This document shows positions 2,555 to 4,335 of a DNA stretch of 28,162 bases, piece by piece (the first letter of the stretch is position 1; each line of letters begins with the position of its first letter). The notes beneath the pieces are model-generated. The model worked only from the letters and a program-made list of their open reading frames with translations. It made no database searches and was not told the origin of the DNA. The position numbers and the translations under genes were made by a program. This DNA comes from a virus. The stretch is taken from positions 1-28,162 of IMG/VR virus record IMGVR_UViG_3300018416_000086; one strand, 5' to 3'.

Positions 2555-3034
2555 ATGGAACAAGAATTAATAAGATCAATTGTAGAAGAGTATTTCGGAA
2601 TAAACTTAAGTGAAAAGTCTAGGAAGACTCTTTATGTAGAAGCTAGGGCTATCTACTATAAACTTTGTAGAACACACTTACCTCAGCTATCCTTAGATAG
2701 GATTGGTAGTGAAGTAGATAGAGATCACGCTGTAGCTATAAACGGTATTAAAAGGATTGAGGGTTGGTTAACTTATGATAAGAGAATCCAAATGATTTAT
2801 GGTGATCTTAATGAAAAGGTTTGTGAGATGATTTACAAGACTAAAGGTTATGTTCGCTTTGAAGATACAGAGGCTCTTTACGAGTCTAAATATAGAAGTC
2901 TATTAGATGACTATAATGAACTAGCAAGAAAGTTTTTATTCCTAAGAGCTTCTCTATCTAAGTATGAACCCAACAGGGTTAAGTCAGATGTATTTGCACT
3001 AAAAGAAGAGAAGTATGCCGGTCAAGAACGATAG
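2555..3034 (+). CDS. DnaA C-terminal-domain-like DNA-binding protein
   Basis: A 159-residue protein. Residues about 20-75 read KSRKTLYVEARAIYYKLCR, LSLDRIGSEV, DRDHAVAINGIKRIEG. This follows the pattern of the DnaA domain IV fold (a helix with A/R, then LSLxxIGxxxxRDHxTVxxAxxxI), which in DnaA contacts DnaA boxes. The ATPase part of DnaA is absent. The C-terminal half is helical and charged. I infer sequence-specific DNA binding, perhaps in replication or transcription control. The stop overlaps the next gene. Confidence 0.75.
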   Translation: MEQELIRSIVEEYFGINLSEKSRKTLYVEARAIYYKLCRTHLPQLSLDRIGSEVDRDHAVAINGIKRIEGWLTYDKRIQMIYGDLNEKVCEMIYKTKGYVRFEDTEALYESKYRSLLDDYNELARKFLFLRASLSKYEPNRVKSDVFALKEEKYAGQER

Positions 3035-3284
3035 AATACCGGAGGCTGTAATAAACCAAGAGGCTGCTAAGTGGTGTATGGATAGGGGTTATAGAATATA
3101 TCCTGTACCTGTGGAGTTTAAAGAACTTAAGTACAAACAGAAGTTAGGTGTTAAGTTTAAACTGATGGTTGAGTTTGGTGGTGAGAAGAGGATAGGTGAG
3201 AAACTATACAGTCAATCTGAATGGCCATTTGCAGTGTGGTCCATATATAATTTTTTATATAATAAACATAATGCAACAAATTAA
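3015..3284 (+). CDS. Conserved small phage protein (YRIYPVPV...WPFAVW type)
   Basis: An 89-residue protein starting inside the previous gene. It has RGYRIYPVPVEFKE, then KYKQKLGVKFKLMVEFGGEK, then YSQSEWPFAVWSIYNFLY. Short proteins with YRIYPVPV near the N-terminus and a WP..xW..Y C-terminal helix are frequent in Bacteroidota phages, and I know no function. Its last 14 bases overlap the start of the methyltransferase, which suggests coupled translation. Confidence 0.7.
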   Translation: MPVKNDRIPEAVINQEAAKWCMDRGYRIYPVPVEFKELKYKQKLGVKFKLMVEFGGEKRIGEKLYSQSEWPFAVWSIYNFLYNKHNATN

Positions 3285-4335
3285 TCTATTAGATTTATTT
3301 AGTGGTATCGGTGGGTTTCACCTTGGATTAGAGAGAGCAGGTTTTGAAATCAACTCTTATAATTCAGAGATAGATAAATACGCAATACAAGTATATAAAC
3401 ATAATTTTAAAGATAGTAAATATGTTGGATCAGTTACAGATGTTCGAGGATCAGAATTACCAAGAATCAACGGAATCACCTTCGGAAGCCCTTGCCAGGA
3501 TTTTAGCCTTGCAGGAAAAAGGAGAGGTATGTCTGGAGAAAGATCAAGTCTCATCCTTGAAGCGATTAGGCTTATCAAAGAATGCCGACCAGATTTTTTT
3601 ATCTGGGAAAATGTTAAAGGAACATTCAGTTCAAACAATCGCCAAGACTTTGCAGCAATCCTGCAAGCGTTTACCAACGTTGGGGGTTATCGACTCGAAT
3701 GGCAACTGCTTAATACAAAGTGGTTTCTACCCCAAAATAGAGAGAGAGTCTACCTTGTCGGATATCTTGGAGACGGAAGTAGAGGACAAATATTTCCTAT
3801 CGGAGAAAGCCTTAGACAGTCTGATGCTGTGGCAGAAACAAGGGAAACAAGTTCCTGTATCACAACAAGCTACCATAAAGGAGTGAATTGGGATAATCAG
3901 TTGATAGCTGCAATGAGAGGTAGGAATCCTGATAACCCCTCAGATAGAAGTAAAGGAGCTCCACTCAAACAAACACTAGAGGTTAATACTGAAGGTGTGT
4001 CTAATACACTTACTAGGGTTCAGAAAGATAATTATGTGTTAGGCTATTCTAGAGACAAGAAGGGTAAGGTTGTGAGTAGGCACAAGAAAGATGTAGCTAA
4101 TACTATACATTCTTCTTCAGGGACAGGTAATAACACGGATCAATTTGTCAATTCAATAAGGAGACTTACTCCTATAGAGTGTGAAAGGCTGCAAGGTTTC
4201 CCAGATAATTGGACACAATATGGAGCTGAAGGACCTATATCTGACACACAAAGATATAAGATGTGTGGTAATGCCGTAACAGTTGATGTAGTAAAGGCTG
4301 TAGGTGAAAGAATAAAAGATGTAATTTATGGGTAG
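3271..4335 (+). CDS. dcm: DNA (cytosine-5) methyltransferase
   Basis: A 354-residue protein starting at ATG 3271; the longer frame from 3196 would add 25 residues with no motif and would overlap the upstream gene by 89 bases. C5-methyltransferase motifs are in order: motif I DLFSGIGGF (about 8-16), IV GSPCQDFSLAG (about 72-82, catalytic Cys), VI ENV (about 112), VIII QNRER (about 155-159), then a variable target-recognition part, IX RRLTPIECERLQGFPD (about 296-311) and X GNAV near the C-terminus. It transfers a methyl group from S-adenosylmethionine to a cytosine. No partner endonuclease is beside it, so it is probably an orphan phage enzyme for protection from restriction. Bases 3422-3886 also encode a second protein in another frame. 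Confidence 0.93.
   Translation: MQQINLLDLFSGIGGFHLGLERAGFEINSYNSEIDKYAIQVYKHNFKDSKYVGSVTDVRGSELPRINGITFGSPCQDFSLAGKRRGMSGERSSLILEAIRLIKECRPDFFIWENVKGTFSSNNRQDFAAILQAFTNVGGYRLEWQLLNTKWFLPQNRERVYLVGYLGDGSRGQIFPIGESLRQSDAVAETRETSSCITTSYHKGVNWDNQLIAAMRGRNPDNPSDRSKGAPLKQTLEVNTEGVSNTLTRVQKDNYVLGYSRDKKGKVVSRHKKDVANTIHSSSGTGNNTDQFVNSIRRLTPIECERLQGFPDNWTQYGAEGPISDTQRYKMCGNAVTVDVVKAVGERIKDVIYG
3422..3886 (+). CDS. Nested out-of-frame gene within dcm (SLSDILE/YFLSEKA family)
   Basis: This 154-residue frame starts with ATG at 3422, runs in the +1 frame relative to dcm and lies wholly inside it. The start (MLDQLQMFEDQ) resembles true starts of a family of phage proteins found near cytosine methyltransferases. 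The C-terminal third has the family signature: TLSDILETEV, DKYFLSEKALD and then KQGKQVP, matching the pattern SLSDILE...+YYLS.KA...L.+..KRGK.LP that I recognise. The overlap covers dcm motifs IV, VI and VIII. Known: the family has no assigned activity. Inferred: the DNA is dual-coding. An alternative is that the frame is a by-product of constraint on dcm and is not translated. Confidence 0.55.
   Translation: MLDQLQMFEDQNYQESTESPSEALARILALQEKGEVCLEKDQVSSLKRLGLSKNADQIFLSGKMLKEHSVQTIAKTLQQSCKRLPTLGVIDSNGNCLIQSGFYPKIERESTLSDILETEVEDKYFLSEKALDSLMLWQKQGKQVPVSQQATIKE

Follow-up and report, generated by a model that had tools for sequence, protein, structure and literature searches.

A second gene overprinted in the +1 frame of phage C5-cytosine methyltransferase genes, with a possible role as a methyltransferase subunit

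Introduction

In prokaryotes, claims of long genes nested on the same strand seldom gain acceptance. The DNA analysed here (the window) comprises the 28,162 bases of an IMG/VR virus record, in which a C5-cytosine DNA methyltransferase gene, dcm, contains a long open frame one base off its own, and the question raised by this locus is whether that frame encodes a second protein and, if so, what such a protein might do. A preliminary description had regarded it as the overprinted partner of dcm, kept open in distant phages, and had proposed that it acts as a methyltransferase (MTase) partner or an anti-restriction factor.

Results

Layout of dcm and the nested gene

The host gene of the overlap, dcm, was located in frame 0 at 3271..4335 (+), with its ATG start codon at 3271 (PF00145, E 1.4e-72; TIGR00675, E 3e-73); dcm residues were numbered with the codon at 3274 as residue 1. 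Entirely within it, at 3422..3886 (+), lies the +1-frame gene for a protein of 154 aa, assigned by the constraint tests below and by a full-length match to phrog_16143 (residues 4-132 against profile positions 5-133 of 139, E 3.4e-14). Its start ATG (3422..3424, +), present at the homologous position in 64/64 non-redundant relatives, is followed at 3431..3445 (+) by QLQMF, residues 4-8 of the +1 protein and a candidate beta-sliding-clamp-binding motif fitting the pattern Q[LM].[LMI]F. By translation, frame 0 reads motif IV, PCQ, at 3490..3498 (+; also by family match), motif VIII, PQNRERVYLVGY, at 3730..3765 (+; the same bases read PKIERESTLSDI in +1) and motif IX, RRLTPIECERLQGFPDNW, at 4159..4212 (+). 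The most conserved segment of the +1 protein, TLSDILETEVEDKYFLS, is encoded at 3752..3802 (+).

The preliminary description of an ATG-started, 154-codon gene at 3422-3886, out of frame over the dcm core and spanning motifs IV-VIII, was borne out. The peptides quoted in it are present in the +1 translation, LVGYLGDG/LSDILET and GQIFPIGESL/DKYFLSEKA are indeed double readings of shared bases, and the 'classic' phage version that it cited was recovered in P1-type dcm, where the bases for PAAVLFELDSVRRDS give RYFLSSTACAGILRR one base on. The longest +1 run in the window dcm is 170 codons and is not due to chance: the runs in 2000 synonymous-codon shuffles averaged 55.2 codons and reached 141 at most.

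Searches of Pfam with the +1 proteins gave no useful match, nor did PDB sequence searches (one match at E 0.46), and a PDB fold search gave none at E <= 0.001. The AlphaFold model of the window +1 protein had no usable fold (pLDDT 48.3), and that of a P1-type +1 protein was confident only for the helical C-terminal part. Directly upstream of dcm, at 2555-3034 (+), the window encodes a 159-aa protein with a DnaA C-terminal DNA-binding domain (PF08299, E 8.4e-11) and without the remainder of DnaA, possibly a phage replication or origin-binding protein.

Open frame and purifying selection

Window-type relatives were found with the dcm protein, and the best 80 of 200 were combined with the window to give 81 genes, some near-identical. 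Across dcm residues 50-178 the +1 frame was stop-free in 80/81 of these genes (set not dereplicated), whereas shuffles preserving the dcm protein predicted that a gene would carry 7.9 stops and that 0.003 genes would be open; the +2 and the three antisense frames were open in 0/81. The +1 frame was likewise open in 72/75 testable P1-type relatives against 4.1 expected, and a +1 ORF with a DILE..KYFLS-like element was present in 8/8 further phage dcm genes, hand-picked from 40 listed dcm matches and including two close relatives. A +1 frame that is often broken while dcm stays intact was therefore not what these phages show.

Synonymous variability of dcm and dN/dS were measured, as the preliminary description had suggested. 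Fourfold divergence of dcm in 65 non-redundant genes was 0.556 upstream of the overlap, 0.562 downstream and 0.161 within it, with a minimum of 0.01-0.03 across dcm residues 146-181, a stretch that contains the bases for TLSDILETEVEDKYFLS of the +1 protein. The drop starts at the +1 ATG; stops in +1 are frequent upstream of this codon, and downstream none reaches the 8% reporting threshold before dcm residue 196. For changes nonsynonymous in dcm, the dN/dS of the +1 frame was 0.33 inside the overlap versus 0.68 outside, and for changes synonymous in dcm it was 0.20 versus 1.37; the corresponding P1-type values were 0.33 and 0.22 inside versus 1.25 and 3.15 outside. The dcm frame was also constrained according to the same substitution counts. 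Sites synonymous in both dcm and +1 change fast, so the constraint acts on protein and not on nucleic acid, and a DNA or RNA element was ruled out as its cause.

The possibility that there is no second protein, and that the open +1 frame is a by-product of dcm conservation, of base composition or of a DNA or RNA element, was weighed against these results. Conservation of dcm can itself generate +1 likeness, as in the comparison of the window type with the phrog_1008 class described below (a score of 32.5 versus 46-54 in shuffled genes), and ORF length is uninformative among P1-type genes from bacterial genomes, where the test is weak at high GC and only 9/80 genes exceeded their shuffles. The shuffle controls, however, hold the dcm protein fixed, the +1 dN/dS is 0.20-0.33 with doubly synonymous sites free to change, and the +2 frame is never open; we consider this explanation scarcely credible and, at the level of sequence, already refuted. 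The +1 frame of such phage C5-MTase genes almost certainly codes for a second protein under purifying selection.

A stop in the +1 gene with dcm reading through it was seen in rare relatives of the window (L110/L047, which are one contig, and L066), and these are possible natural knock-outs.

The P1 type

In phage P1 (AF234172) a +1 ORF of 163 codons was found in dmt, at 2216-2707 of the locus; it is unannotated and contains LLSQVLE..RYFLSSKACAGILRR, RYFLSSKACAGILRR being the C-terminal end of the P1-type +1 protein. The DNA of this ORF matches 517/5426 complete E. coli genomes, and its translation matches 531 plasmid records. Searching with the P1-type motif yielded at least 596 relatives from 600 stretches of viral contigs and 177 relatives from 209 stretches of bacterial genomes, with 80 examined in each case and a few contigs shared by the two sets; when 200 genomes of Pseudomonadota were drawn, the motif profile matched 4 of them.

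Among 72 non-redundant genes retrieved with the +1 motif, dcm fourfold sites diverged by 0.03-0.09 at residues 191-230, 0.25-0.4 in some other overlap bins, 0.3-0.6 in the C-terminal extension, where sampling is thin, and about 0.5-0.7 across most of the remaining dcm. Over dcm residues 201-230 the conservation of the +1 protein exceeds that of dcm, and the start ATG is kept in 92% of the 72 genes. A further set of 80 loci, the one that gave the 72/75 open genes above, was chosen solely by dcm residues upstream of the +1 gene; among its 77 non-redundant genes the ATG was kept in 69/77 and the motif in 71/77. Shine-Dalgarno-like 4-mers were found upstream of the P1-type ATG in 20/72 genes (null 7.5) and 25/62 genes (null 8.5), in sets that were not dereplicated.

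Spread and age

With the +1 protein as query, tblastn returned 214 phage records at E <= 1, and related +1 genes over dcm were found in streptococcal phages, in phage P1 and in an archaeal virus. Each relative was compared with the window in +1 against 200 dcm-preserving shuffles. The pairwise score lay above all 200 shuffles for Methanobacterium virus Drs3, SAC12B, Lenus, IPP14, MM1, P0091, NihilNomen, a Ruminococcus phage and Javan112, lactobacillus and streptococcal phages being among those that passed; P1 (reached by 4/200 shuffles), VpaJT_1 (1/200) and CcrPW (43/200) did not pass. Profile comparison of the window type with the P1 type gave 40.6 versus about 19 in five shuffles, which links the two types beyond what dcm alone gives. 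The +1 gene is old enough that an archaeal virus has it in common with phages from several bacterial phyla. Among cellular genes, E. coli K-12 dcm lacks the +1 gene (longest +1 run 88, null 105), and no +1 run longer than in shuffles was found in 30 cellular PF00145 genes.

The preliminary description had named a stand-alone SLSDILE family, always encoded apart from dcm, as the other finding that would contradict overprinting. No such family was found among the motif-found loci, dcm being in the -1 frame at 80/80 viral and 80/80 bacterial-genome loci with the P1-type motif. With the +1 frame not commonly broken and not found away from dcm at these loci, the proposal of an overprinted partner of dcm, open in distant phages, is supported.

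An ORF in the +1 frame is annotated in 3 of the 26 annotated phage regions examined (MM1, P0091 and Thibault), and in MM1 and P0091 it is already annotated as methyltransferase. Thibault gp104, one of two fold-search matches at E <= 0.001 (the other was a phage cytosine MTase), was considered as a stand-alone copy and turned out to be the +1 piece of an interrupted dcm. In Thibault (L512), Schatzie (L513) and Omegavirus (L168, L514), dcm is broken up, with its pieces next to HNH genes or on either side of them; according to the record of Schatzie, the limits of the intron are not determinable. In FP_Toutatis (L160) dcm is split over two ORFs, and at three loci (L199, L252 and L344) the dcm and +1 parts are joined in one frame; these four cases come from frameshift mutation, from natural fusion or from errors in sequencing.

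A second overprinted class

The phrog_1008 family (WPTP..WVEWLMGFP; labelled DNA methyltransferase; L416-L425, L432-L511), considered at first as a stand-alone relative, proved to be a +1 overprint of another MTase lineage, since all nine genome matches inspected out of 10 (L420 being left out, and two of the nine being one contig) overlie a gene of that lineage in +1. In 60 non-redundant genes of this class, fourfold divergence was 0.64-0.76 outside the +1 ORF and 0.08-0.69 inside, the minimum of 0.08 falling over NPTWVEWLMG. The +1 ORF exceeded shuffles (p <= 0.01) in 57/77 genes and the +2 ORF in 0/77, three short genes being left out. A motif-IX-like pentapeptide was present in +1 in 70/77 genes and in frame 0 in 1/77. 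Because its likeness to this class does not go beyond what dcm homology imposes, as given by the scores above, the window type was not filed with phrog_1008 and no common descent is claimed. This second overprinted family and the N-terminal QLxLF-like motif treated below are additions to the preliminary description.

The C-terminal element

The segment TLSDILETEVEDKYFLS of the +1 protein resembles an in-frame segment that follows shortly after motif VIII in many ordinary C5 MTases, for example VGDILEKDVDDKYTIS. For a fair test of this likeness, a profile was built from the post-motif-VIII segments of 25 cellular MTases (34 were supplied, 3 of the 34 having been found by the +1 profile); the DILE-KYxLS element is visible in many of the 25 segments and absent from some. 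Against this profile the window-type +1 frame scored 15.9 bits on average and at least 8 bits in 74/74 genes, compared with a mean of -1.1 and 4/740 at or above 8 bits for shuffled +1 frames; frame 0 and +2 of the window type never reached 8 bits. The +1 frame outscored all of its shuffles in 74/74 window-type relatives, and all 10 shuffles in 75/80 and 74/79 P1-type genes (means 5.0 and 4.2).

The reverse profile, of DILE-KYxLS as built from the +1 proteins, matched window-type +1 in 74/74 by construction and window-type frame 0 in 0/74. In the P1 type (sets of 80 and 78 genes, not dereplicated) it had 45 and 28 matches in +1 and no match in frame 0, and among 30 cellular MTases it matched frame 0 in 4/30 and +1 in 0/30. 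E. coli K-12 Dcm was undetected by it, the likeness to Dcm being one seen by eye, and direct genome matches to the +1 element were weak (E 0.002-0.008). The PADLOC type II MTase model matched 48/51 members at E <= 0.1 (best 1.9e-5, window 0.0069).

The motif-IX-like pentapeptide lies in frame 0 in 72/74 and in +1 in 0/74 window-type genes, by a crude pattern that finds frame 0 in only 14/30 cellular MTases and +1 in none; since motif IX stays in frame 0, the window dcm may work alone. In both overprinted classes an MTase element thus lies in the other frame, namely DILE-KYxLS in the window type and motif IX in phrog_1008. Because its conserved end resembles the in-frame segment of ordinary C5 MTases, the +1 protein was read as a second MTase subunit acting in trans. 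We judge that it is, on balance, the small (beta) subunit of a two-part C5 MTase; the likeness to cellular MTases could also have arisen by convergence without shared function. As regards the two functions suggested earlier, the MTase partner is thus the better supported, and the anti-restriction factor received no direct support.

An MTase-like C-terminal element would also be expected if ribosomes were programmed to shift from dcm into +1, the product then being an MTase variant with a different end and not a separate protein, and the three loci with dcm and +1 parts in one frame fit such a scheme. Against it stand the conserved start ATG at the point where constraint begins, the N-terminal motif directly following that ATG, and the excess of Shine-Dalgarno-like 4-mers upstream of the P1-type ATG. 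Programmed frameshifting is accordingly judged very improbable.

The N-terminal clamp-like motif

QL(S/D)LF or QLxLF is the bacterial sliding-clamp-binding consensus, placed mostly at C-termini (PMC4549789, PMC9690074); QLQMF of the window is a variant whose third residue is Q and whose fourth is M. Occurrences of Q[LM].[LMI]F within 12 codons of an ATG or GTG were counted in non-redundant genes. The motif was found in 47/48 window-type genes (null 0.40), 19/57 P1-type genes from bacterial genomes (null 0.10), 10/55 genes of the phrog_1008 class (null 0.38), where it is partly forced by the dcm sequence preceding PCQ, and 3/44 viral P1-type genes (null 0.50). Five control patterns gave 0-3 genes. 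Near a start codon the motif was present in 0/30 cellular MTases, and without the start-codon condition in the +1 frame of 2/30.

Offsets of the motif from dcm motif IV, measured with a slightly wider pattern, range from -20 to +37 residues. Upstream offsets are -20 (window), -18 (streptococcal), -15 (mycobacteriophage), -10 and -9, and downstream offsets are +30 (Pseudomonas), +33 (Magnetospirillum, Desulfovibrionaceae, Collimonas) and +37 (Janthinobacterium, QLDFF). The upstream and downstream groups, at least, cannot go back to a single inherited position. The P1 +1 protein begins MQLTTNG and has no full clamp motif. In Methanobacterium virus Drs3 (L158) the C-terminal element is kept and a bacterial-type clamp motif is not visible by eye, as might be expected in this single case because its host has PCNA. 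We tentatively propose that the QLxLF-like motif binds the host beta sliding clamp, a reading for which the case is nearly balanced and falls slightly short.

A clamp-like motif at several dcm registers would also suit a real +1 protein that is no MTase subunit, an independent phage factor seizing or blocking the host beta clamp and merely riding in dcm; the clamp-blocking toxin SocB uses such a motif (PMC9690074). No copy was found apart from dcm in the 80 + 80 motif-found loci, however, the top conservation falls on the MTase-like C-terminal element and not on the clamp motif, and P1-type enterobacterial copies without the clamp motif still keep the C-terminus. An independent clamp factor is considered unlikely.

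Discussion

The explanation towards which we lean overall, with moderate confidence, is that of a dual-coding gene whose +1 product would serve as the second MTase subunit in trans and would possibly be tethered to the clamp. The nested protein would be made from its own start inside the dcm message, and the frame-0 chain would retain the catalytic motifs. The +1 chain would supply 'TLxDILE..V..KYxLS' in trans as a recognition-side element, its in-frame counterpart sitting where target recognition begins. Its N-terminal motif would hold the MTase pair on the host beta clamp and bring the MTase to newly copied phage DNA, which might then be methylated at the fork before host nucleases act, much as Dnmt1 operates with PCNA. 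Nested coding would keep both parts together and their amounts linked.

Among known systems the nearest in layout are M.EcoHK31I and M.EaeI, in which, as reportedly described by Lee, Kam and Shaw (NAR 1995), the gene of one polypeptide contains, out of frame, the entire coding sequence of another; the nested polypeptide is said to carry motif IX, and both are said to be needed for methylation. The window +1 gene at 3422-3886 is likewise wholly inside dcm (3271-4335) in the other frame. The window type differs in that motif IX stays in frame 0 and the +1 protein has DILE-KYxLS and a QLxLF start; because its +1 frame lacks motif IX, which reportedly lies in the nested polypeptide of the M.EcoHK31I type, it was set apart. 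The phrog_1008 class fits the layout of M.EcoHK31I, with a motif-IX-like stretch in +1 in 70/77 genes. Overlapping two-part C5 MTases are already known, and the phage +1 system would be a widespread and distinct version of them.

Parts of the system have been recorded before. The family phrog_16143 ('DNA methyltransferase') is identical with the +1 family, matching the window at E 3.4e-14 and IPP14 at E 9e-52, and MM1 ORF14 and P0091 gp40 are annotated ORFs in the +1 frame of dcm; these records mention methyltransferase, but neither dual coding nor a clamp-like motif. P1 Dmt, a bifunctional Dam/Dcm MTase, shares the feature in that dmt carries a +1 ORF, and differs in that this ORF is unannotated in the P1 record and has no full clamp motif. 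In actinobacteriophage methylases an HNH endonuclease hidden out of frame within an insertion is described in PMC11855218; this too is an out-of-frame gene within a phage DNA methylase, but it is a homing endonuclease in a mobile insertion, whereas the second frame in the window covers the conserved catalytic core. Dnmt1 is a cytosine MTase that a PCNA-binding motif guides to freshly replicated DNA (PMC9690074). Guidance of an MTase to new DNA by a clamp motif would be common to both, and is predicted in the case of the window; in Dnmt1 the motif is in the MTase itself, and in the window type the candidate motif is in the nested protein.

The literature searched (titles and the starts of abstracts, with most subscription papers outside it) contained no recognised account of the +1 gene, which is weak evidence of absence, and a search for six +1 motif strings found none. 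That literature, including the accessible parts of PMC11855218, PMC4549789, PMC9690074 and PMC12707154, mentioned neither the spread across phages nor the P1 case, and neither the DILE-KYxLS version nor the recurrence of a clamp-like start.

A wider picture may be drawn more speculatively, and we hold it to be possible and rather doubtful as a whole: phages of bacteria and archaea would use one gene in two frames, the nested part both completing the MTase and tethering it to the clamp in a manner like that of Dnmt1 and PCNA, with the motif having arisen repeatedly at new starts and P1 dmt holding an unrecognised copy.

A nested gene in dcm is backed here by several independent tests, and it occurs, mostly unannotated, in phages that include P1, long a standard phage of the laboratory. 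Should the +1 protein prove to be a clamp-bound MTase subunit, this would explain how methylation of nascent DNA by phages could come early enough, and both the persistence of overprinted genes and the use of the replication clamp by prokaryotic MTases would become testable.
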